Virus record (IMG/VR): IMGVR_UViG_3300025168_000131
Location: 1 to 50,051 of that record
Source of the DNA: a virus
DNA length: 50,051 nt
Strand: one strand, 5' to 3'
Position 1 is the stretch's first letter; the number at the start of each line of letters is the position of its first letter. Below, piece by piece: positions 1,328 to 49,705 of the stretch. The translations under genes and the position numbers were made by a program. The notes under the pieces were generated by a model. The model was not told the DNA's origin and made no database searches. It saw only the letters and a program-made list of their open reading frames with translations.

Positions 1328-1792
1328 CTAACATTTCCATCTTCTTCTAGCAGCTTTACCTCTTTCGCCGGTCCAACTTTTCGATCTAGCACAAAAAGCT
1401 TTTCTTCTTTTAGCAGCTTTACTACCAGGTTTGACCTTACCAGTTACAGCTGTTTTAAGTTTACTACCAGGATTTTTTCTTTTATATTCCTTAACTCCTT
1501 TAGCTGTCATACCAGCTCCTTCTTCAGTAGTTCTAAAATTTCTTCCTTTGCCTTTAGTAGTTTTTCTTACATCCGGCTTCTTTTTTCTTTTTTTTTTATA
1601 AGCTGGGCTATCTTCATATTGATTAGCAGGTGAATCACCTTCACTATCTGGTTTGCAGTCAGGAACCATTTTAATACTACCTGAAGCTGTCTTCTTTCCT
1701 GATGGTGATGGTTTAGTCCCATCAGCGCTGTATCCATCCCAACAAGCTTTTATTGGTGATTTTGCACAAAAATTATTTTTAAATTTACTCAT
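1328..1792 (-). CDS. Small basic, Cys-containing conserved phage protein
   Basis: 154 aa, strongly basic. The N-terminus carries KSPIK (from about residue 12) and paired DSPAN/DSPAY motifs, then a lysine cluster KKKRKKK. The C-terminal half has the pattern GAGMTAKGVKEYKRKNPGSK and ends FCARSKSWTGERGKAARRRW-K-C. I recall this pattern from an uncharacterised family in marine phages (possibly DUF6321). The stop codon of the 3344-aa gene and this start share one base (TAATG), so the two are translationally coupled, and this is the last gene of the structural operon. Function unknown. Its charge suggests DNA association or packaging in the virion, by inference only. Confidence 0.75.
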   Translation of the reverse strand: MSKFKNNFCAKSPIKACWDGYSADGTKPSPSGKKTASGSIKMVPDCKPDSEGDSPANQYEDSPAYKKKRKKKPDVRKTTKGKGRNFRTTEEGAGMTAKGVKEYKRKNPGSKLKTAVTGKVKPGSKAAKRRKAFCARSKSWTGERGKAARRRWKC

Positions 1793-4700
1793 TATTCTAA
1801 GTTTAAACCTTCTATTTTTAATTCTGCAGATGAATTAGATAAATCTAATCCTTCAATTTTTAATCCTTTATCATCTTCTTTTTTGTCTGGCTTTATCTGC
1901 CAGGAATTCCAACCTAATAATATAAATATAGCTTCCCAAGTTTCTGTATCTTCTTCTAAAGCAGATCTAACATTGTTTGTTTTCTGCACTAGTCTATCTA
2001 AAGGTATATTAGTGATTGTGCTAAACACTTTAGATCCAGCTTCCCAAGCAGGATTGTCTAGTGAAAATCCTTTGTCTAAAACTTCTTGTCTTCTTTTTTT
2101 AGAGTCAAATACCCAACCAGCATTTTTTAAATTCATTAATTTCTTTCTTATAGAAGGAGAGAATTGTAATAAAGTCTGCCAAGCATCGGAATATTCTGGT
2201 CTTTTTCTTTGAGATCTATCATATATATCTATTCCTAAATTTTTAAGAACAGAAACAGTTATACCTGCAAAACCTAAACCTCTTAACATAGAGTCAACCA
2301 TACCGTTTGCCGTGTAGATAGTTTTATCTTTTAAATCTCCATCGTCTTCATCATCGTCTCCAAATCCTGCTAACATTAAACCTGATTGCATTGCATTAAA
2401 CCACATGTTCTGTATAATACCATAGTAAAGTATCTTACCCATGTTTTCTCTTTTAGAACCTCTTCCATTAAGTAAATCTTGAAAAGCTCTTTTCTGTAGT
2501 CTAGTATATTGCATAGGGGTATTAACAAACTGAAGTAACAATCTACCCATTAAAGTTGTTTGTTGTTTAGATATTTTACTAGGATCAGAAGATTGTTGAG
2601 ACATTTCTGATTTTTCTTTAAACTCCTCAAAAGCCTGCGCTTCCGCTTCTTCTTGGCTTTTCCCTTCGTTCTTTATTAAGTCATTAACTCTATTTCTATA
2701 AAACGTAGCACCACCTGAAGCTATGGCAAAGCTATCCATAAATTTAGTGGGTAAATAACCTTTTTCTATTATATAACTTATAACTGCTTTAGCTTTATTT
2801 CTTGAGCTTTTAGCTGCATCTGCAATTTCCGACTCATTTATATTTAATTTTAATCCATTTCTTCTATCTACTAAATAATCAGAATTAAGTATTTCAATAA
2901 AATCTTTCCAATATTGTTTTTGATTAGCAAACGCTTTACCAGCAGCAGCAGGATTGTTGTAAGTCCAGTTTAAAAAGTTAGCGGCAGATATACCTTGAAG
3001 CAAAGCAGATCTCATGTTAAAAAACATTATAGTACCTACAGATCCATTTATCCAATCCATCACTTCATTTGTCAACCTGTCTGTACTAGGCTGTCTGTTT
3101 TTGCCAGACTTCATTCTTCTTATAATATCCTCTAATGCTTCTCTATATTTACTACCATATAAAGCCTCTAGTTTGTTTAGATTTTCTTCACTAAACATTG
3201 CATCAACAGTTTCTTTCCAGTTTTCTAAATACTTACCTCTTTTAGTTGTGTTAAGCATATCTACTAAGTCAGTAGTAATTGTACCACCCAACCAGCTTTG
3301 ACCAGGTTTAGAATAACCATCACCTTTAGTTATTTCTAAAATTGAATTACCAAAAGTTTTAAGTTTAGGATCGTTTTCTACAATATCTAATAATTCTTTT
3401 AAATCTGTTTTAGATATACCCGGTACTTCTTGACCAGTTTTATTCCATAAGTAAACTCTTACAGCTTGTTCATTAGTAAATCCTGAATTTGTTTTCTTTC
3501 TAAGATCCTTAGGAACTTCTAATGTTTTCTTTAGTTTCTTAAAATCAGCCATTAATTGAACTCTGTCTGCAGATAAATCACTCATAGCCTTTGAGTAAGG
3601 TTTTAGCAACATATCTTCATAAAACTTCATTTGTTGTTCACCAACTTTGCCAGGTGCTAATGTTTCATAAAGCAACCCTAAAAAATCCTCAGCTGAGTTA
3701 GGTATAAAAAACTTAAACTTATTTTTCTTGCTTCCTAAGACTTGTGCTTTAGCTTTTGAATATTGCTTATACCATTCTATACCGCTTGAGGCTTCTAAAT
3801 ATTGATTAAACTTATCACTAACACCTTGAGAAGTACTTAAAGCTACTTTAGCTTGCTGAACTTTTGATTTAACATCTACAACACTTAAAGCATCTTGAAC
3901 AGCTCTAACATTAGCCATATGATCATCAGCAAAATAAAAGTCATTATAACCATCAGCCGCTTTGTCTATAACCCAATTAGCTTTTGCAGCTCCTGTAGAA
4001 TTACCTAGTCCAGTTATATTTTTTAAAGGTATATTTAAACCAACACCATCTAAGAAATCTTTTATAGCCTGTTGAGACTCAGGTGCTCTAGCTGTTAAAA
4101 CAAACATGTCCTCGGTGCCTCTTGACTCTTGTATTTTTTGAGCAACTTCAAATAAAGGACCTTTTCTACCATTCATAACTTTATTAAACTCTGAAAAATC
4201 CCACACAGCTCCATCATTTTTCATCTCTTCACCTCTTTGTGCAAACTCTTCAGCAGTTAGTTTACCAGTAGTACCATCAGGCATAGTATATAAAACATTG
4301 CTTTTAGTTCTAGCTAGTGTATCATCAAAATCAAATACTCTAATTTTTTTAACTGGTCTATTTAATCCATTTGCTTTTCTTATAGCTTCGTCGATAGTAG
4401 CAGCCTTGTTCATGACATCTTCATTTGTCATAGTAGTAGGATCTAAATACAAAACTTTAGATTTTCCAAGCTGTTGAGAATTAGAAAGATTTGTTTTCTT
4501 CAAGTCAGGAACTGTTTTTAAATATTGTTTTAATTCTTGTTTTGAATTTTCAACAGGATTTAATATTAATTCATTTTGTTTAGCAACAACATTAGGATCG
4601 TTTTCAAATTTCTTATCTACACCTAATCCGTTTTCCTCTGCTATAGTCTTACCTGTTAATGGATTAATTATAGAATTTAAATTTATTCCGGCAGCCGCGT

Positions 4701-7700
4701 ATCTAACAGCTGGATTACTAAATATACTAGTTCCTTTTGGCATTACAGCATCTAACTTAGCAGCATCTAATTTAGAGTCATCAAATTTAGAAAGCTGAGT
4801 TTGAGAGTAATTTTCTCTTAAAGCATCCATTGTTTGTTTGGCTCTATTGCTTTTTATAGCAGCTATTAAAGAAGCTCCGACAACTGAAGCGGGTGGATTG
4901 TGTTCTTCTCTATATTTTTTACCTTCTCTTTGCTGAGACTTACTACCTTTAGGGCCATAAGCAAAAACTTTAGAGGCATATTTAAAAGGAGCAGCTACCT
5001 TAATTAATCCATCAGTTGCTTGATAACCTTGAGTAACTATCATTGCAGCATAATTAATGCTCATTCCACCTTGCTTAGCTTTAGCAAGTTGATCAACAAC
5101 AGACTCTAGTACATCCATATTTTCAGCTGACTGTTTAGCTTTACTTTTAATAAAGTCTTCTGTAACTCCAGATACAGGTGGTATTATTTTTTTAAATTTA
5201 GCATCACCCTCTTTATCATTCTTTTTAGCTTCTTCTAAAGCTTTTATGTAAGCAGGATCAGAAGTTCCATAATACAATCTGCTTTTATCTCTTGGCACTA
5301 AAGACGTTCCTTCAGGAGTAACTGGTTGTGAGTATTTAATGTTACCATTTTTAGTTTTACCTTTTATACCTTCCATCCATTGACCATTGTCTAATTGGTA
5401 AAAGTAAGGATTTTGAACCTCTTTTCCTTTTACAATTCTAGTTTTAGCTTTTACTAAATTACCATCTTTATCTAATTGACCTTGCGCTCTTCTCGCTCCT
5501 GAAAAAGCAAAAGCGCCAGCTAGAAAAACTTGAGAGTTTAGTTTGTGTTTTATGATTTGTTTTTCAAACTCAACTTGTCTAGCTACTCTATTATCGTCAG
5601 TTATAATTACATTTTTAGGATCTATTTTTAAGGATTTTAAAGCAGCTTTGATATCTCTTTTTTGCGATATCTCTTCAATAGTAGACATGTAGTTTACATC
5701 TTGAGCTTGAGTAAACTGAGTACTACTTTTCATAGCTTTAGCTTTGCCTTCACCCATTTTTTGAGTACCTTCTACAGATTCTCTTATAGCTTGATTAGTT
5801 AGTATTTTCTCTGTAGCTCTAATCATTGCTTTAACAGGTTGACTAGACATAGAAACATTTTGAACATTAGGCTTTCCAGCTTCTGTTATGCCAAACAAGT
5901 CATCAAAAACACTGTCTTCTACATTGTCAAGTTTAGTTTGTTTTGATAAACCTTGTTTACTACCTGTTTTAGTCATTTTTACTCTATCACCTTTAGAGTA
6001 GAATTTATCTAATAAAACTTTTGCCATACCTGTAGATTTACCAGAAGGATCTGTACCTTCAGCTAAAGCACCAGACATCAATGTCTGCTTATTTTTCATT
6101 AAAAACTGTTGTACAGCTTTTATGTCTTGACCATTTAAAGCAGCGTTATTTTCTATTTTATTTAATATAGATTCAGCAATAGAAGTTCCTAAAGCTTTCT
6201 TACCTTTAGGCGTTCCCCAAAAAGAGCCGCCATCATCAACATATACAGCATTTGGATCTGACATAAACATTTCCACTGTTTCCTTAATAGCTAACTTAGG
6301 TGTTTGTTTATACCCTTTACCTTTTAACTTAAGACCAGAAGCCATGGCTTTTACTTTCTTATCTATAGCTTTTGCTTTATCCCCTAATCTATCTTTTATA
6401 AAAAACTGTGGTTGTTGTGATTCTTCTTGACTAGTAGAGCTAGATCCTTGAGATACACCTTGTTTTTCAACAACTTGTTTCACACCTTCTTTCTCCATAC
6501 TAATTTCATCACCTTTTTTCTGCTGCTTTTTAAAGCCACTACCAACTTTCAAACCTAAATAACCACCTATATAACCTGGTAAATCAGTGTTTTGAGAAGG
6601 ATCAAAAGCTTTAACGTGGTTCATTAAAAAATCAATACCTGCATAAGCTGTACCCATCGGATCTTCTGAACCTTTTCTTTTAGCTATAGCAACCATATCT
6701 GGTAAATAAGAAGTTTGAACCTCTTTTACCCCTGGTTTTTCTAGTAATTCTCTTTTTTCTTTACGAGTATTATAGTTTAATATATTGTTATTTTTATCTA
6801 ATAAAACAGTACCTGCTAATATTTCATCTTGAACTAAAGCTATTCCTCTTGGCGACTCTACAAACTCTCTCCATTCTTCTTTAGTTTTACCTTTAGCATG
6901 TTCATCATATATGTTGTCTACTACAATGTTTCTAGTATCTTGCCTTGTTTTTTTATTTTCAGTAGTTTCGTCTATTACTGAAATAGATAAAGCAGCCTCA
7001 ACCTCTGGCTTATCTTTTACGTTTTCGTCAACAACTGTAGTTGTTTCTGTAGACTCTTCAGGCTTTGCTTGGATTTCATTATCTCTATTATAAACTACTT
7101 TACCTACTTCTTCTGAAAACTCGTCCTGCTTACCTTCAGTTATTGCCTTAGTCTCTATAGAATAATTTTTTATAAAGTCGTAAACTCCTTGCGGGCTGTC
7201 GAATTTTAAATCTTTTTTAAATGAACCTGGAGCAAAACCGTTTATTAAGTTAACAATCCAATCTCCTAGTTGTTCAAATATGTTTTTATCATATTTTAAA
7301 TCTCCCCTAACAATAGCATCATGAAAGGCATTAAACCATTCTTCAGTAGTAGCTATATCAACACCATTGTAGTTTGCTTCTAGTCTAGCTTCTACAGTTG
7401 CTTTTTCTTTTGGACTTAATATATTTTTAAAACTATTTATTAATTCCACTTGCTCTTCGTCACTAAGCCCTGCTAATTGATCAGCGGTAATGTCATGCAA
7501 TATTTCGTGAGTAGTGGCTGATATAGATACCATATCCTCCATCATTTTAGTATTAACTATTATGTTTCCACTACCATCTTTAAGATACATTGCATCAGCT
7601 AAAGATTGATTAACAAGATTTCCTTCTGCATCCACAGCTTGAAGCGCAACATTATTGTCTTCCATAGCTTGCTCAAACTCTTGTTGAGATTTAGCAAAAG

Positions 7701-10700
7701 TTATAGTTCCTCCACCTCGTCTATCCATTATTTTTTCACCTAGCACTTGCTGTCTTTCTACAGCTTCTTTAGTACTACCTTCAAATCTTTTGTTATTAGG
7801 ATCAAGTGATATAGCTTTCACTTGAGCATCTATAACAGCTACTTGTTCAACAAGATCAGCAGCTGCATTTTTATCACCTATTTGGTCAATCTCTTCTATT
7901 AATTCGTTTTTCTTAAGTAACAACTCACCCATCTGGCTTTGAGCAACACCTGTTAAATTTTGTGGAACTTGATGTTTATATACTTCATATACTTTATCAG
8001 CTTGTTGCTTAAGCTTAGAAGCGGTTTCTTCATCCATTTCATTGTCTGGATCATTAAGTTGATTATCAATATCAGACTTGTATTGTTCTAAAGCATCTTC
8101 ATTTCTTTTATTACTAACATTAAACTGTAAGAATTGTTCAAGATCAGCTTTAGCTTTTAAACTTAAAGCATTATAGTTATCTACAAGTTTATCATTGTTA
8201 TTTACACTTCCATGAAAAACTCCACCAACAGCTCCCATAGTAAAGCTAATTTTAAACAATTGGTCCATTTGTTTTTTCCACTCCGCACCATTTTGATCGG
8301 CTATGTCCCATTTTATTTTATAATCAGTCACTCTTTGGTAGTCAGATTTTATACCTTCAGCAGCTATGGCTTGAGTATATTCCTCCAAAGTTTCTAATAA
8401 ACCAGCCTCTGCCATTCCGCCAGCCTTACCAGCTGTTTTAGCTACACTTTCACCAACTAATTTTCTAACACTTGCATTAAGAGATTCAGTAGTAACTACT
8501 TTACCTTCTTTACTAAATAAATCTAATGCAACATCTACGTATTTTTTAACTACTTTACTAGAGAATGGTTTTATCTTACCTTGTAGAACTTCACCACTAA
8601 AATATGTTAACGCAGCTTCAACACTTGCTTGAGTAAGTATATAACCTTTTTGTTGCATAGACGTAAAACCTTTTTCAAACTCTTGTAAAGCCATCCATGC
8701 TGGGCCATCATAATTTTTAATAAATTCACTTTGCATGTCTAATATCTCTTGCTGTGAACTTGCCATACTGTTGAAAAAGAAACCCGCAGACAAACCAAAT
8801 GACATAGGAGCTCCAGGAGTTCCTCCAGCATAAGCACCTAACATAACAGCTGCTGTATCAGCTAAACCACCTAAGAAGCTTTCAGAATAAGTAGTAGCAT
8901 ACTTTTCATCTATATTCTTAATTTTCATAATCTCCTTCACAGCTTCTACATCTGCAGAAAAACTTTTTTGATCAGCAGATATTTTCCCTGCGTTATAATT
9001 ATATTCATCTTCACTAATAGCGCCTGTAAATCTACCTACTTCATTAAATAATTCTGCTAAATAACTAAAGCTAATAGCTTTACCACCTGTAGCGTCAGCA
9101 AATGCGCCTGTGAAACTATTCCAAGTTTCACCTATAAAACTACCTCTACCTTCTCCTTCTTTAAATATTTTCGCGGATTGGTCGTGTATGTTTTTAGAAC
9201 CAGCAGCAAAAGAAAAAGACAAAGCTTTATAGGTATCTGCAGCGTTTAAAGCTCTAGTCATTTCCAAACCAGCTTTTCTTATCTCTGGAGTGAGATCAGC
9301 TTTATAAGCTTTATACTCCTCCATTTCTTTTTTATACTCGTTATAATTTGCAGTATAACCTTCTTGTATACTTTTTATTTCTAAATTAAGATTGTTTACT
9401 TCTTGAGTCTTGTTGTCAAAGTCAGCTTTAAGATCATTAAACCTAGGCTTGTAATCTTTAGTTTCCCATGCAATGAAGTCATTGTAAATCTTTAATTGAG
9501 CATCTCTTGTTGTAGCTTTTTTTATTTGAGCTTCTGTTTCTTTGTATTTTTCAGTGTATTCACTGTTCAACTCTTCTATCGAAAGATTTATATCTTGCTG
9601 ATCTTGAACTAAAGGTTTGATATCACTTTGTACCTTTTTTAAACTTTCATTAGTTACATTGTATTCACTAAGTATGTTTTCACTAGCACTATTTATTTTT
9701 TCTGTTTTTTCTTCTAATTTTTTAAAAGCTGAATTAGAATTTGTATTTTTTTTAACAATCTTCTTAGCGTGATTCATGTTTTCTTTAATCAAGCCTTGTA
9801 ATTCTTTGAGTTTTTTGTCAAAACGTTTTCCACCAGACATAAGCTTTTCTTCATTAAAAGCTTCAGTATTAGTTATTGTGTTTTTTTCTCTTTTAAATTT
9901 AAAGTTTTCTTTTTTAGTATTGTCATTTAAAAAATTCATCTCATCAGCCAAACCTTGAGCTATATCTACACCGTTTCCATTGTGTTTAGTATTTATAGCT
10001 ACTCCTTTTCTTATAAGATAATCTAATTGTAAAGCTTTTCTTTTGGATACATTCATTACACCCAATGAAAAAGCTTTGAAATCTTCATTATACAAGCCGT
10101 TAGCTTTGGCAGTTGCAACTAAATCTATTTCACCAGCTTTTTCACCACTAGTAAAAGTTCTACCATTTTTAAACGTAGTAATATAATCTCCACCATCTTT
10201 ACCAATTAAAGAATCTCCTTCAATTAAGAAAACTTCTCCAGCATCGGTATATTGTAGACCAATACCTGTGACTGTTATTAAACCAAAATTAGCATATTTG
10301 TCATTACGATTTATAACTAGTTTATTTATTTGCTTTTCATTTTTTTCAAAATCTCTATCCCAATAATTAGCTTTTCTAGGGTTTTTCTTAAACCAAGAAC
10401 CAGGACCAACAGCCATTCCACCACGTATTGGATCATAGGTTTTATCCATGTTAGGAATTATTTTACCATTTTCATCAGTTATAAAGCCACCTTTATTGCC
10501 TACTGTTACTTTTGGTATTTCGTCATCCTCAATCTTCATGAACATCTCAACGCTTTCACCTGTAGCATTAGCTGTTGATATCGTGTCCATAATTTTCTTT
10601 TTCTTTAAATACGCTTCTTGAATCTCTATAGCTAGCTGTGTTCTTTCTTCTTCAGGCATAGCTTCGTCATTATACCTAGCACTTAACTCATCTAATTTAG

Positions 10701-11826
10701 TAGTAGATGCATCTAGTTCTGCTCTAAGAACCTCTGGATCTCCTTCTATATATGTGTCAACTTTTATTTCAACTTCATCTAATTCTTCTGTAGCTTGAAC
10801 AACTTCTCCTTGTTCATTTATAGTTTTTTGACCACTTTCACCTTTTTGAAATTTTTCAAACTGTTCATTAGTAAATGATCTAGTTTTTTGAGCTTTATTT
10901 AAGTCTCCGTTTTTTTCTAATATCTGTACAAGGGATCTTTCTTTACCTTTAGCTTTAAAAGCTTTTTGAATCTCCTTAGCTCTTGCAATAGCATTTGGAG
11001 TAGCTGTGTATAGAGTATAGTAATTTTCTAAAGTAGATCCTTTTGGTTTTACACCTTGCTCTAGTTCAGGTTGTTCACCTGGTAAGTTTAATACTTTAGC
11101 TTTAAATGTTGTTTCCTCATCGTCTTCAAATGGTCTTTCAGCATCAAGCTTTTGAATTAAAACTACTTGTTCTTCGTAAGACTCAGGTTTATAAACATAT
11201 CTTTTAAGAGAATAATCATATTTAGTGTCATCCTTAGTAATGCCGGCTTCTTCCATTTGTCTCATGCCTCTAGCATCGTCTGTAAAATACTGCTCTTGAC
11301 CTTTAACTTTTTTTAATTTAAAAGCTTCTAATACAGCATCACTTTGATCTAAGGATATATGATTAGCATCATGTTGATCTTCATTTTCTGCTAAAGCATA
11401 AGTGTCCAGTACATCTACTTTTACTTTTCTTCTTTTTTCACCACCAGGTAGAGTCATTTTAACAACATCGTCGGTAGCCTTAGAATTTATGTTTATAAAA
11501 TTAGCTCTATTCTTTTTCTTTTCTTCTTCTTCATCATCTCCACCTTCTAGTAAGGTATTAGGATCTAACTGCTCTAAGTTCGACTGTAATTCCGAAGAAA
11601 AAGTTTCCGAATCTGAAACCAAACTCTCTTCTATGTTTTGCGACGCCACAGGCACAGTCTCCCCCATGTTGTCTTCTTGAAAATTTACAGGAACTTCTTC
11701 TTGTACTTCAACTTTCTCTTCTTCTAATACAACTTCTCCATTGTCATATTTTTCTATTTCTAAAAGAAACTCTTCATCAGTAATTCCTTTTGAGTATAGA
11801 TTTTGAGCGTATTCTAATCTTGTCAT
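1792..11826 (-). CDS. Giant polyvalent internal virion protein (3344 aa) with HExxH and HAD-type motifs
   Basis: The longest gene in the window. The N-terminus is acidic, followed by long charged coiled-coil regions (residues about 650-900). A Gly/Ala-rich hydrophobic region (about 980-1020) and a second (about 1190-1210) could insert in membrane. HEILH at residues 1440-1444 is a zinc-metallopeptidase-type motif. DFDDTLA at 2499-2505, with a later VLTARA and YFADDH, is a complete-looking HAD phosphohydrolase pattern. The C-terminal about 500 residues have more hydrophobic segments and an Asp-rich GDDDEDD. Such fusions are known as phage large polyvalent proteins and are usually packaged and ejected with the DNA. 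It overlaps the upstream 691-aa gene by ATGA. The function of each domain is inferred from motifs. Confidence 0.85.
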   Translation of the reverse strand: MTRLEYAQNLYSKGITDEEFLLEIEKYDNGEVVLEEEKVEVQEEVPVNFQEDNMGETVPVASQNIEESLVSDSETFSSELQSNLEQLDPNTLLEGGDDEEEEKKKNRANFININSKATDDVVKMTLPGGEKRRKVKVDVLDTYALAENEDQHDANHISLDQSDAVLEAFKLKKVKGQEQYFTDDARGMRQMEEAGITKDDTKYDYSLKRYVYKPESYEEQVVLIQKLDAERPFEDDEETTFKAKVLNLPGEQPELEQGVKPKGSTLENYYTLYTATPNAIARAKEIQKAFKAKGKERSLVQILEKNGDLNKAQKTRSFTNEQFEKFQKGESGQKTINEQGEVVQATEELDEVEIKVDTYIEGDPEVLRAELDASTTKLDELSARYNDEAMPEEERTQLAIEIQEAYLKKKKIMDTISTANATGESVEMFMKIEDDEIPKVTVGNKGGFITDENGKIIPNMDKTYDPIRGGMAVGPGSWFKKNPRKANYWDRDFEKNEKQINKLVINRNDKYANFGLITVTGIGLQYTDAGEVFLIEGDSLIGKDGGDYITTFKNGRTFTSGEKAGEIDLVATAKANGLYNEDFKAFSLGVMNVSKRKALQLDYLIRKGVAINTKHNGNGVDIAQGLADEMNFLNDNTKKENFKFKREKNTITNTEAFNEEKLMSGGKRFDKKLKELQGLIKENMNHAKKIVKKNTNSNSAFKKLEEKTEKINSASENILSEYNVTNESLKKVQSDIKPLVQDQQDINLSIEELNSEYTEKYKETEAQIKKATTRDAQLKIYNDFIAWETKDYKPRFNDLKADFDNKTQEVNNLNLEIKSIQEGYTANYNEYKKEMEEYKAYKADLTPEIRKAGLEMTRALNAADTYKALSFSFAAGSKNIHDQSAKIFKEGEGRGSFIGETWNSFTGAFADATGGKAISFSYLAELFNEVGRFTGAISEDEYNYNAGKISADQKSFSADVEAVKEIMKIKNIDEKYATTYSESFLGGLADTAAVMLGAYAGGTPGAPMSFGLSAGFFFNSMASSQQEILDMQSEFIKNYDGPAWMALQEFEKGFTSMQQKGYILTQASVEAALTYFSGEVLQGKIKPFSSKVVKKYVDVALDLFSKEGKVVTTESLNASVRKLVGESVAKTAGKAGGMAEAGLLETLEEYTQAIAAEGIKSDYQRVTDYKIKWDIADQNGAEWKKQMDQLFKISFTMGAVGGVFHGSVNNNDKLVDNYNALSLKAKADLEQFLQFNVSNKRNEDALEQYKSDIDNQLNDPDNEMDEETASKLKQQADKVYEVYKHQVPQNLTGVAQSQMGELLLKKNELIEEIDQIGDKNAAADLVEQVAVIDAQVKAISLDPNNKRFEGSTKEAVERQQVLGEKIMDRRGGGTITFAKSQQEFEQAMEDNNVALQAVDAEGNLVNQSLADAMYLKDGSGNIIVNTKMMEDMVSISATTHEILHDITADQLAGLSDEEQVELINSFKNILSPKEKATVEARLEANYNGVDIATTEEWFNAFHDAIVRGDLKYDKNIFEQLGDWIVNLINGFAPGSFKKDLKFDSPQGVYDFIKNYSIETKAITEGKQDEFSEEVGKVVYNRDNEIQAKPEESTETTTVVDENVKDKPEVEAALSISVIDETTENKKTRQDTRNIVVDNIYDEHAKGKTKEEWREFVESPRGIALVQDEILAGTVLLDKNNNILNYNTRKEKRELLEKPGVKEVQTSYLPDMVAIAKRKGSEDPMGTAYAGIDFLMNHVKAFDPSQNTDLPGYIGGYLGLKVGSGFKKQQKKGDEISMEKEGVKQVVEKQGVSQGSSSTSQEESQQPQFFIKDRLGDKAKAIDKKVKAMASGLKLKGKGYKQTPKLAIKETVEMFMSDPNAVYVDDGGSFWGTPKGKKALGTSIAESILNKIENNAALNGQDIKAVQQFLMKNKQTLMSGALAEGTDPSGKSTGMAKVLLDKFYSKGDRVKMTKTGSKQGLSKQTKLDNVEDSVFDDLFGITEAGKPNVQNVSMSSQPVKAMIRATEKILTNQAIRESVEGTQKMGEGKAKAMKSSTQFTQAQDVNYMSTIEEISQKRDIKAALKSLKIDPKNVIITDDNRVARQVEFEKQIIKHKLNSQVFLAGAFAFSGARRAQGQLDKDGNLVKAKTRIVKGKEVQNPYFYQLDNGQWMEGIKGKTKNGNIKYSQPVTPEGTSLVPRDKSRLYYGTSDPAYIKALEEAKKNDKEGDAKFKKIIPPVSGVTEDFIKSKAKQSAENMDVLESVVDQLAKAKQGGMSINYAAMIVTQGYQATDGLIKVAAPFKYASKVFAYGPKGSKSQQREGKKYREEHNPPASVVGASLIAAIKSNRAKQTMDALRENYSQTQLSKFDDSKLDAAKLDAVMPKGTSIFSNPAVRYAAAGINLNSIINPLTGKTIAEENGLGVDKKFENDPNVVAKQNELILNPVENSKQELKQYLKTVPDLKKTNLSNSQQLGKSKVLYLDPTTMTNEDVMNKAATIDEAIRKANGLNRPVKKIRVFDFDDTLARTKSNVLYTMPDGTTGKLTAEEFAQRGEEMKNDGAVWDFSEFNKVMNGRKGPLFEVAQKIQESRGTEDMFVLTARAPESQQAIKDFLDGVGLNIPLKNITGLGNSTGAAKANWVIDKAADGYNDFYFADDHMANVRAVQDALSVVDVKSKVQQAKVALSTSQGVSDKFNQYLEASSGIEWYKQYSKAKAQVLGSKKNKFKFFIPNSAEDFLGLLYETLAPGKVGEQQMKFYEDMLLKPYSKAMSDLSADRVQLMADFKKLKKTLEVPKDLRKKTNSGFTNEQAVRVYLWNKTGQEVPGISKTDLKELLDIVENDPKLKTFGNSILEITKGDGYSKPGQSWLGGTITTDLVDMLNTTKRGKYLENWKETVDAMFSEENLNKLEALYGSKYREALEDIIRRMKSGKNRQPSTDRLTNEVMDWINGSVGTIMFFNMRSALLQGISAANFLNWTYNNPAAAGKAFANQKQYWKDFIEILNSDYLVDRRNGLKLNINESEIADAAKSSRNKAKAVISYIIEKGYLPTKFMDSFAIASGGATFYRNRVNDLIKNEGKSQEEAEAQAFEEFKEKSEMSQQSSDPSKISKQQTTLMGRLLLQFVNTPMQYTRLQKRAFQDLLNGRGSKRENMGKILYYGIIQNMWFNAMQSGLMLAGFGDDDEDDGDLKDKTIYTANGMVDSMLRGLGFAGITVSVLKNLGIDIYDRSQRKRPEYSDAWQTLLQFSPSIRKKLMNLKNAGWVFDSKKRRQEVLDKGFSLDNPAWEAGSKVFSTITNIPLDRLVQKTNNVRSALEEDTETWEAIFILLGWNSWQIKPDKKEDDKGLKIEGLDLSNSSAELKIEGLNLE

Positions 11827-44604: not shown

Positions 44605-44861
44605 AATATAATTACTACGTCAAACTCTTTTATAACTTTATACTGCTCTTTTTTTATTTCAATGTTAAAGCCAGCAGCTTTATCATAATAAATTTTATCG
44701 CCTTTTTTAATTACACTTACTTCAGAACCTGGATTAATTACTTCTGCTACCCTATACCTAACGTCTTCTCTTTGTTTTTCACCTAATATTAAACCTCCTT
44801 TAGTAGTGACGTTTATTTCTTTTTCAGGTTTTATTATTATATACTTACCTATTGCTTTCAT
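44601..44861 (-). CDS. groES: GroES-type co-chaperonin
   Basis: 86 aa, near the usual 95-100. It starts [15 protein letters not shown] and has the mobile-loop region KGGLILGE (LIL at residues 24-26 corresponds to the IVL that contacts GroEL). It also has the conserved VINPGSEV and KKGDKIYYDK motifs, and ends in FDVVIIL. It forms the lid of the chaperonin. The ATG overlaps the end of groEL as ATGA, and the gene is read after groEL, opposite to the bacterial order. Confidence 0.93.
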   Translation of the reverse strand: MKAIGKYIIIKPEKEINVTTKGGLILGEKQREDVRYRVAEVINPGSEVSVIKKGDKIYYDKAAGFNIEIKKEQYKVIKEFDVVIIL

Positions 44862-46396
44862 GCTCTTAGATTATTAATAACACAATCAGTAGATATTATA
44901 GTAGTAGCTACAGAAGCCGCATTTTTTAAAGCGCTTTTAGTAACAAGTAAAGGATCTATTATTCCGGACTTTACCATATTAACCGTTTTGCCTGTAACCA
45001 CATCTAATCCTTTACCTTTAACTTTTGGCGCTTCGTAATCAATAATACCAGCATTTTCAAGTATAGTGTAATAAGGCGCTTTGATAGCATCTAATAACAC
45101 TTGTTCTGCTAACGAACTTGGTTTTATATAGTTTGCTGCGTTTAGCAGTGCTATACCTCCTCCTGGTACTATACCTTCTTTAATAGCGGCTTTTGTAGCA
45201 CAAATAGCATCTTCTACTCTATCTCTTTTTTCTTTTAATTCTATTTCAGAATTTGCTCCTACTTTTACTATAGAAACTTTAGAAGATAACAATGCTAATC
45301 GTTTTTCTATTTTTATTATTAAATTAGGATTTTTAGTTTCTTTTAATTGATTATTAAGCTCTTGTATTAATTCTTTAACATTTAAAGGTATTTCATCAAC
45401 CTGTAAAATAGTTTCTTGTCTATCACTTACTGCTCTGCTACAAGATCCTAAATGATCTACACTGATTAAATCTATGTCATCACCTAAGTCTTCGTTTATT
45501 ACAGTGGCTCCAGTTAACATCGCTAAGTCATTAAGCGTATCTTTTTTATTGACACCGAATGGTGGAGCTGCTACAACGTTAACTTTTATATTACCTTTTA
45601 CTTTATTCATCGCTAATGCTGATAATACTTGCGTGTCTACGTCAGCTATTATAAGCAATGGTTTATTAGTTTTTATTACATGTTCTAATACGCTTTGTAT
45701 TTTTCTTATGTTCTCTACTTCGCTTTCTATAATTAATACTAAAGGGTTTACAAGCTCTGCTTTACCCTTGGCAGTGTCAGTTATAAAACTAGAATTTTGA
45801 ATACCTGCATCATACTGTATACCTTCTATTGCTTCAAAAGTAGTTTCAGGTAAATCATGTGTCTCCATCATTACTATGCCAGTTTCATCAACTGATCTAA
45901 ATGCTTGACCAATGAGTTGGCCTAACTCACGGTCGTTATTAGCTGATATAGTAGCTACTTGTTCTATTACATCTCCTTTTACTTTTGAGGAATGTTTTTC
46001 AAGATATTGCACTACTTTTTTTACAGCTAAATTAATTCCTTTTTTTAAGTCTCTACTGTTTATTTCAGTATACTTATTAGCTTCTGTTATAATAGAATGT
46101 GCTAAAACCGTTGCTGTTGTTGTTCCGTCACCAGCTTCACTAACTGTTTTTCTAGCGGCTTCTTTTAATATTTTAGCACCCATGTTCTCAACTGGATCTA
46201 GTAATATAACTGATTCAGCAACTGTAACTCCATCTTTAGTTATCTGTGGGTTACCATGACCGTCTTCTAGTATAACACATTTACCACTAGCACCTAGTGT
46301 AGAACTAACAGCTTTAGTTAGTTTTTCTATACCACTAAATATAGTGGCTTTAGCATCCTCTCCAAAATTGAGGTGCTTTACTATTGTTTCATTCAT
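44858..46396 (-). CDS. groEL: GroEL-type chaperonin (Hsp60)
   Basis: 512 aa, slightly shorter than cellular GroEL (about 545). The ATPase residues are present: KDGVTVA with Asp55, GDGTT at 89-93, and Asp396 in [12 protein letters not shown] followed by GIVPGGG. The apical part (residues about 185-365) is present, and the C-terminus ends [12 protein letters not shown] without a GGM tail. It folds proteins in an ATP-driven cage with GroES. Phage copies are known from large phages and presumably serve the capsid or tail proteins made late. The promoter is probably in the 68-bp gap after the fibre stop. Confidence 0.95.
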
Positions 46397-48438: not shown

Positions 48439-48508
48439 TTTATTTTTTTAATATTTTTGTATATTATTAGTATTCACTTGTAAAAACAGTTATTTACATT
48501 AATAATAG

Positions 48509-48553
48509 TGTGACATAAGCCTATTACTAGTTATACTTAACAACCTAGTGTCA
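48509..48553. repeat. 45-nt dyad element, copy A
   Basis: Aligns without gaps to 49545-49589 at 35 of 45 positions. The ends TGACA and TGTCA are inverted and can pair; the core shares TTACTA and CTTAACAA. Lies upstream of the second tail fibre gene. Confidence 0.65.
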
Positions 48554-48750
48554 CTATTTAAAAAAAAGTATAAAATATATAGAAGTACAGTGCTTCACCT
48601 CAAAATTTTATTGTGAATGTCGTATACAAAACGCAATCAAACAACCCGGGCTCCCCCTTTTTCGCGATATTGTTGTCAAACCTTTTGGGCTTTTGCAATT
48701 ATGTTGCGCATAACATTGACATTTTCACATACTATGCCACACAAAGTAAC

Positions 48751-48780
48751 TACGATGCACATAAGATAATATAAACATAA
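48751..48780 (+). promoter_or_regulatory. Early promoter-like repeat, copy 1
   Basis: Starts TACGA and contains ATAAGATAATATA followed by A/T and ATAAC. ATG of the next small gene is 55 nt after its first base. Same arrangement at copies 2 and 3. Confidence 0.6.
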
Positions 48781-48805
48781 CAATAACAAACTTAATAACA
48801 AACTT

Positions 48806-48919
48806 ATGAAAATCTTAAACTACATATCATTAATAACAATAACATCAATCATAACATTAATAACTTATAACATAATAACATACGGAATTGTTCAATACAT
48901 ATCATTCAATGGAATTTAA
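48806..48919 (+). CDS. Small hydrophobic peptide (37 aa)
   Basis: MKILNYISLITITSIITLIT is a one-TM segment, followed by YNIITYGIVQYISFNGI. It has a promoter-like repeat 55 nt upstream of its ATG and a stop (TAA) before the next repeat, the same layout as the next two plus-strand genes. It is strongly G-poor: no G between 48809 and 48883. No family is known to me; a membrane-acting early peptide is a possibility. A real gene is less certain than for the next two. Confidence 0.45.
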   Translation: MKILNYISLITITSIITLITYNIITYGIVQYISFNGI

Positions 48920-48930
48920 TACAATATAAA

Positions 48931-48960
48931 TACGACTACAATAAGATAATATATATATAC
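48931..48960 (+). promoter_or_regulatory. Early promoter-like repeat, copy 2
   Basis: TACGACTACA, then ATAAGATAATATATATATAC. It is 52 nt upstream of the ATG at 48983 and shares its first 23 bases with copy 3. Confidence 0.65.
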
Positions 48961-48982
48961 TAACAAACTAAAATTAATAACA

Positions 48983-49222
48983 ATGTCAAACACTCTTAAA
49001 ACCTCATCACTTCACATACTCACACTTAACAATCAAACATACATACCATTTCAACCTCATACTCTACCTAATTACTTTCATAACATACCAATCAATCACA
49101 TAATTAAATTCAAATCATACACATACATAAACATACTATCACTTAAACAAACTTTAAACTATTACAAAAATAACATAACATTTAATAACAAACTTAACTC
49201 ACAACTACTTCATAAAAAATAA
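48983..49222 (+). CDS. G-free small gene (79 aa)
   Basis: Coding strand with one G only, in the start codon; no G from 48986 to 49237. The protein therefore contains only residues whose codons can be written without G, besides Met: F, L, I, S, P, T, Y, H, Q, N and K. It has no Gly, Ala, Val, Asp, Glu, Arg, Cys or Trp. It is polar and basic, rich in N, H, Y and K, and begins MSNTLKTSSLHILTLNNQTY. No domain is visible. It has a promoter-like repeat 52 nt upstream. It may be a true early protein, or a reading frame that rides on selection for a G-free transcript. Confidence 0.6.
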   Translation: MSNTLKTSSLHILTLNNQTYIPFQPHTLPNYFHNIPINHIIKFKSYTYINILSLKQTLNYYKNNITFNNKLNSQLLHKK

Positions 49223-49234
49223 TTACAAACTAAA

Positions 49235-49264
49235 TACGACTACAATAAGATAATATAAATATAA
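49235..49264 (+). promoter_or_regulatory. Early promoter-like repeat, copy 3
   Basis: TACGACTACA, then ATAAGATAATATAAATATAA, 67 nt upstream of the ATG at 49302. It is the first place with G after the G-free stretch. A weaker fourth copy (AAGATAATATAATAAACAAT) is near 49827-49846. Confidence 0.65.
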
Positions 49265-49301: not shown

Positions 49302-49538
49302 ATGAAAACTAATAACTTAACAACTAAAAGATTCGTAATCAGAAAATCTCTAATCGGTACTAACTCAGTAATAACTTTTACTAATAATAAAGATATTACA
49401 TTCACTTATGATCATGATGAAATATACTCAACATTTCAAGAAAAGTTTGAATCAATGAAGTGTTTTCAAGAATACAAATCTTATACTAACTCTAATACTG
49501 TACCAGCTTTCGCTAGAAACTTAGCAGAAGTATCATAA
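49302..49538 (+). CDS. Small early protein (78 aa)
   Basis: 78 aa, starts MKTNNLTTKRFVIRKSLIGT, then beta-like NSVITFTNNKDITFTYDHDE and a C-terminal helix IYSTFQEKFESMKCFQEYKS. Normal amino-acid use, unlike the G-free neighbour. No family recognised. The leader has a promoter-like repeat, and a dyad element (49545-49589) lies just 7 nt beyond its stop. Likely an early accessory or host-takeover protein, by location. Confidence 0.6.
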   Translation: MKTNNLTTKRFVIRKSLIGTNSVITFTNNKDITFTYDHDEIYSTFQEKFESMKCFQEYKSYTNSNTVPAFARNLAEVS

Positions 49539-49544
49539 GTAATA

Positions 49545-49589
49545 TGTGACAGTAGCCAGTTACTATTATATCTTAACAAGCTATTGTCA
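49545..49589. repeat. 45-nt dyad element, copy B
   Basis: Second copy. Here the arms TGACAGTAGC (49547-49556) and GCTATTGTCA (49580-49589) pair over ten positions with one G-U. An inner GTTA/TAAC stem is also possible. Not followed by a T-run. Confidence 0.65.
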
Positions 49590-49705
49590 TACTACACTAT
49601 TAATAATATATTAATATAACTATGTAAGTTATTGAGAAGTCAAGTGTTAAACTATAACTATAAAATAAACTAATAAATAAATATACACCTTTAAACTAAA
49701 TAAAA

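Follow-up and report, generated by a model that had tools for sequence, protein, structure and literature searches.

A class of small early phage genes whose reading frames are purged of G

In the MazF single protein production system of E. coli, an ACA-less gene stays expressed while other messages are cut (PMC9102682). Other endoribonucleases favour G: RelE, which acts only on the ribosome and early in genes, preferably cuts before G (PMC5224514), and the sites that RNase Y prefers in A/U-rich RNA lie after guanosine (PMC4608709). The phage genes described here resemble the ACA-less gene in that a gene without the cut site of a nuclease would escape mRNA cleavage; however, that system is engineered, concerns one trinucleotide and has a known enzyme, whereas the present genes are natural, lack a whole nucleotide, fall into several families and have only candidate agents. 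RelE serves as a lead only, comparable in its confinement to translated codons, its action early in genes and its preference for cutting before G, and differing in that the exclusion of G here spans all codon positions. To RNase Y, a G-free message would offer no preferred site. We know of no phage that escapes RNase Y by means of G-free genes. A further comparison is with T4-type cytosine-modified DNA, the likeness being a dCMP-hydroxymethylase-like enzyme and a MazG-like pyrophosphatase in relatives of our phage; to our knowledge, T4 has no G-free early genes, unlike the phage studied here.

A literature search of limited coverage returned no report of natural genes that lack one nucleotide over a whole ORF, and we are aware of no natural precedent for such a gene.

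The G-free run and its surroundings

The window, meaning the whole stretch of DNA that was analysed, comprises 50,051 bases and is a virus record from IMG/VR. Its structural genes (terminase, portal and structural proteins) match those of the Flavobacterium elemo and Cellulophaga podovirus-like group, with a terminase 45% identical to that of the elemo phages and ~37% identical to that of the Cellulophaga phages; judged by this similarity, the phage is a relative of flavobacterial podovirus-like phages. The phages with G-free genes are marine bacterial viruses, whose hosts are probably marine Bacteroidota. Unlike the window phage, elemoA_7-9A has no G-free run above 39 nt within the early stretch examined. 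Late and early genes of the window diverge at a junction near 48.4-48.8 kb, past which short early genes run rightwards, several of them with a repeat resembling ACAAACTAAATACGA-N9-GATAATA in front. The features of the locus are as follows.

48740..48773, plus strand: diverged copy of the promoter-like repeat, 5' of the 37-aa ORF (repeat search)
48806..48919, plus strand: ORF of 37 aa, hydrophobic, poor in G (6 in 114 nt) but not G-free, with a homologue in contig L003
48920..48953, plus strand: promoter-like repeat TAAATACGA-N9-GATAATA (family D1 repeat), 5' of the G-free gene; a putative promoter, with many copies before early genes of relatives
48983..49222, plus strand: G-free early gene of family A, 79 aa, its only G in the ATG and its stop TAA; an ORF with one-G homologues in contigs L003 and L004 and dN/dS of about 0.1
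48986..49237, plus strand: 252-nt G-free run by base count, comprising the ORF after its ATG and the 15 nt that precede the G of the promoter-like repeat following it
49224..49257, plus strand: copy of the promoter-like repeat 5' of the next gene, which terminates the G-free run (repeat search)
49302..49538, plus strand: krf (a name given here), a conserved 78-aa neighbour gene with normal G, used as the locus anchor in 61 relatives

The first-pass annotation had reported a stretch without G at 48986-49237, and base counts (A 119, T 70, C 63) bore this out; it is the longest G-free run of the window, the second longest measuring 75 nt (48809-48883). Its further counts also held, with 10 G in the 483 nt from 48766 to 49248 (A 241, T 136, C 96) and, in the ORF at 48983-49222, a single G and no G-requiring residue besides Met1. 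The statement that the ten nearby Gs fall mainly in repeats and start codons was half right, as five do (48808, 48934, 48945, 48985 and 49238) and five lie inside the 37-aa ORF.

A null distribution of run length, as the annotation had proposed, ruled out a chance origin: in 200 second-order Markov windows of 50 kb, the longest G-free run averaged 59 nt and never exceeded 99 nt, and with the G-poor composition of the early region (8.9% G, run excluded) the mean was 95 and the maximum 155. Given its protein and the codon usage of the window, the 79-aa ORF would be expected to contain 6.0 G, and the probability of none is about 1e-3; that 78 residues should avoid all G-requiring amino acids has a chance of about 4e-18 at late-gene composition. 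Sequencing or assembly error was likewise ruled out, by two independent contigs from different metagenomes (L003 and L004), whose 79-aa proteins are 72-73% identical, whose ORFs hold one G each, and whose G-free runs measure 254 and 264 nt.

Homologues, further families and the borders of the exclusion

Base counts at the locus in related phages, which the annotation had named as a check, showed direct homologues to be equally G-free. Between the three family A ORFs, each of which would be expected to carry about six silent Gs, there are 69, 62 and 72 pairwise differences, none of which involves G, with C-T, A-T and A-C changes abundant; in the next gene of the same genomes, G takes part in 13 of 44, 8 of 40 and 11 of 38 differences (20-30%). 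The dN/dS of the 79-aa frame, another suggested check, was near 0.1 in the two pairs for which it was computable, indicating that the frame is a real protein. Values for G-free ORFs lay mostly at 0.04-0.3, and these ORFs encode real proteins under purifying selection. The objection that relatives might have normal G at this locus applies loosely, in that many of them have a different gene there, but the direct homologues there are G-free. Family A members carrying 10-17 G occur in a second phage group (in L006 the gene sits downstream of krf), which shows that the function of the protein does not need the G-free state.

The 79-aa protein had no match in 50,697 phage records, and no relatives were found in bacterial genomes. 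Comparisons with Pfam, PHROGs and PDB folds gave no functional match; DUF5436 (PF17504) reached 15.6 bits, below its curated cut-off of 27. The predicted fold of family A, a model of lower confidence (pLDDT 69), consists of strands followed by a helix. One family A homologue (L017:4958-5231) has an intact frame whose first part is G-free, with no ATG in the G-free run and a possible ATT start, and those in L014 and L015 apparently start at TTG.

Of 50 related viral records, seven had a G-free run of at least 110 nt; each had a single such run, which in every case lay at this locus on the early coding strand. When sequences were scanned for the promoter-like repeat followed by ATG and 97 G-free bases, 27 DNA stretches were found, with families A (LNNQTYIPFQ), B (FKITNITLKTF), C (NKYQT...FIILNNKLIFTH), D (INKYQIKLTTNLLTNN) and E (IYNLLFNSNKL). 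Since this repeat-anchored scan is biased toward G-free starts, families C and D were collected again by protein similarity alone, regardless of G content. All ten family D loci then had 1-3 G per 168-174 nt, ATG included, and beyond their ATGs the 17 family C loci together had 16 G in 2922 nt, of which one occupied a third codon position. Proteins of the G-free families are small, at about 55-79 aa. Families C and D align with each other and were modelled with high confidence as a 55-aa b-a-b-b-a-b domain (pLDDT 94.7), and judging from the predicted structures the trait is apparently common to at least two different folds. Class members share the same promoter-like repeat and usually lie near krf, with L132/L133 and L165 as exceptions. 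A further G-free ORF of 50 aa and different sequence (L165:3851-4003) lies downstream of a distant krf, on a MAG contig that is probably phage DNA.

The borders of the exclusion coincide with those of the ORF. Across 28 distinct ORFs with G-free starts, with G-containing family A members left out, one silent third-position G was found in 1634 codons, compared with 6.5-7.3% in the adjacent krf and 8.3% in other early ORFs. TAA stops close 26 of 27 G-free ORFs, as against 142 of 186 other early ORFs, and the exclusion reaches the last codons. G is tolerated just outside: the 12 bases before the ATG contain 7 G in 324, compared with 1 in 745 silent sites (p 0.0013, a value drawn, like the others here, from related loci that are not fully independent), and in the 30 nt after the stop G is back to 7.3% (53/727). 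In near-G-free ORFs, residual G sits mostly at the first codon position, chiefly in Asp codons. Almost all silent G has thus been removed, as has coding G at those positions where the protein seems to permit it.

A general shortage of G in early genes was rejected as the cause. There is a mild gradient over ~2 kb in the early cluster L023-L083, where mean coding-strand G is about 4-9% near the krf start and reaches 16-19% ~2 kb downstream, with C remaining at ~13-16%, and the leaders of early genes generally contain little G (1-3% for genes with less than 15% G). However, krf, usually 50-240 nt downstream of the G-free gene at loci where this is readable, has a G content independent of its neighbour, at 12.6% in 18 cases with an upstream G-free run and 12.4% in 63 cases lacking one (p 0.88).

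Taken with the G-free homologues, the absence of G differences and the several families, the boundary at the ORF strongly supports the earlier suggestion that the G-free state is selected. The genes form a class of small early genes, belonging to several sequence families, in which selection directed at G as a nucleotide has cleared it from the sense strand, and there from the ORF alone, a pattern of which we are practically certain.

What might act against G

A gene without G has to forgo nine amino acids (Gly, Ala, Val, Asp, Glu, Arg, Cys, Trp and internal Met), and the selective force must therefore be strong. The pattern suggests that G in these messages is penalised by some factor in the infected cell, and it gives a clear view of a hidden, G-dependent barrier that phage gene expression has to overcome. 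Our boldest reading, to which we assign a probability of roughly 0.4, is that phages write this class of genes in a three-letter alphabet without G so that no others are expressed while an early, G-dependent block is in force in the infected cell. If this is true, the G-free cassette would be a device of general use, whatever protein it encodes, and would reveal a host defence or a step of phage takeover; it may also provide a natural G-free expression cassette. The candidate mechanisms (a ribosome-dependent nuclease, RNase Y, modified template cytosine and GTP limitation) each predict something different and can be tested.

As to mechanism, the target process would be specific for the sense strand, the ORF and G, and would operate early in infection. 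Our best proposal, a tentative one, is that the G-free message is expressed at the start of infection while something attacks G in translated mRNA; the idea of escape from a G-specific RNase, already raised in the annotation, is possible in this form and is our best guess. The most economical agent would be a G-requiring endoribonuclease. Were it RelE-like, it would cut in the ribosomal A site, where the G of the start codon never comes to lie; were it RNase Y-like, it would cut after G in A/U-rich RNA. Either would leave a short G-free ORF intact. The G-free ORF would be translated while ordinary messages are cut, and its product might be a fast countermeasure or a takeover protein, after which ordinary early genes could be expressed. 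A point against this proposal is that neighbouring early genes have normal G behind the same promoter-like repeat, and would have to be expressed later or tolerate such an attack.

Several findings support a G-directed nuclease: the absence of G from differences between homologues, the near-G-free families C and D, the almost complete loss of silent G, the limit at the ORF, the preference for TAA and the lack of selection against base pairing as such. Confinement to decoded codons, with G tolerated in untranslated flanks, fits evasion of a RelE- or MazF-type enzyme, although the loci behind this comparison are related. Against RelE itself, that enzyme mainly prefers third-position G, and here first- and second-position G is avoided as well; against a free RNase, G after the stop codon would remain exposed. 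Many relatives without a G-free gene speak against a nuclease of either kind. A putative RNase Y match was found in a Bacteroides control genome.

The main rival, which we consider doubtful, holds that the phage genome contains modified cytosine, that a G-free coding strand, having a C-free template, can be transcribed, and that its product or later factors make the remaining genome transcribable. The strand asymmetry, with G excluded and C not, fits this exactly. Relatives also encode a protein of the thymidylate synthase family whose best PDB matches include CMP 5-hydroxymethylase and, among others, T4 dCMP hydroxymethylase:

L136:1050-1736, L137:782-1468 and L138:1143-1907, in relatives and not in the window: dCMP-hydroxymethylase-like gene with an adjacent MazG-like pyrophosphatase gene

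In the relatives' enzyme, an Asp (MRSNDLWFGFCIDQYCF) aligns with the Asp of the CMP 5-hydroxymethylase 5b6d. We take Asp at the dUMP-binding Asn position of the thymidylate synthase family to be the mark of a dCMP hydroxymethylase, so that the activity is predicted, and from these sequences the phages may carry modified cytosine. Searches for the enzyme found it in 9 of 15 and in 8 of 26 records, of which many were fragments. However, it occurs whether or not a G-free gene is present, and phages whose family A gene contains G (G044 and G045) have it too, so that a link between enzyme and G-free gene proved uninformative. In addition, every other early gene has C in its template and is transcribed all the same, and host polymerase transcribes T4 DNA with modified C.

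Self-immune effectors and GTP limitation are weaker options. In the former, which is unlikely, the product would destroy or block G-containing messages (host shut-off) and its own message would be exempt. Exclusion that is gene-specific and ORF-limited, in genes for small proteins, agrees with this, but the same activity would have to reside in several families whose predicted folds differ, no nuclease match was found, family A homologues with G exist, and neighbouring phage genes are unprotected. Quite improbable is early transcription under scarce GTP, in a starved host or under a GTP-depleting defence, with the first gene avoiding GTP; exclusion of G on the sense strand and the climb in mean coding-strand G from the first early genes would agree, yet the adjacent gene has normal G behind the same promoter-like repeat, translation itself requires GTP, and G is tolerated just before the ATG.

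We give similarly low odds to selection for a message that is free of structure and translated at a high rate, like the A-rich leaders of Bacteroidota. Early leaders are indeed G-poor, and A-U pairs alone are possible without G. Yet folding of the G-free ORFs matched or exceeded that of synonymous-codon shuffles (mean z -0.89, n=27), which largely refutes this reading, proposed in the annotation as an unstructured transcript, and indicates that selection acts on G itself; the exclusion also extends to the last codons, at the cost of nine amino acids. Mutation bias or avoidance at the DNA level (restriction sites, an origin, strand-specific deamination) would reduce G across a stretch of DNA, but is hardly credible, since sharp ORF borders, promoter-like repeats that keep G and a normal neighbour disfavour regional bias, several families are hit, and the purge goes beyond site avoidance; with the rest of the genome unprotected and at normal G, including the adjacent gene, the restriction escape once suggested would be pointless.

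Other elements of the window

A conserved stem-loop-like element, GTGACA(N3)GCC...GGC(N3)TGTCAC, occurs at 48508-48554 and 49546-49590. It lies at the late/early divergence, with a second copy just after krf at many loci, is present in 59 of 61 loci (L023-L083), and in its second window copy has a folding energy of -17 kcal/mol (z -3.97); it resembles a terminator, a processing signal or a regulatory element. No Rfam match was found in the early region and no tRNA in the window. The 3344-aa late protein (1792-11826) had no convincing relative in Pfam, PHROGs or PDB, and was rejected as a virion RNA polymerase for want of a match. The phage also has a GroEL gene of its own, at 44858-46396 (PHROG 5725, E 4e-133).
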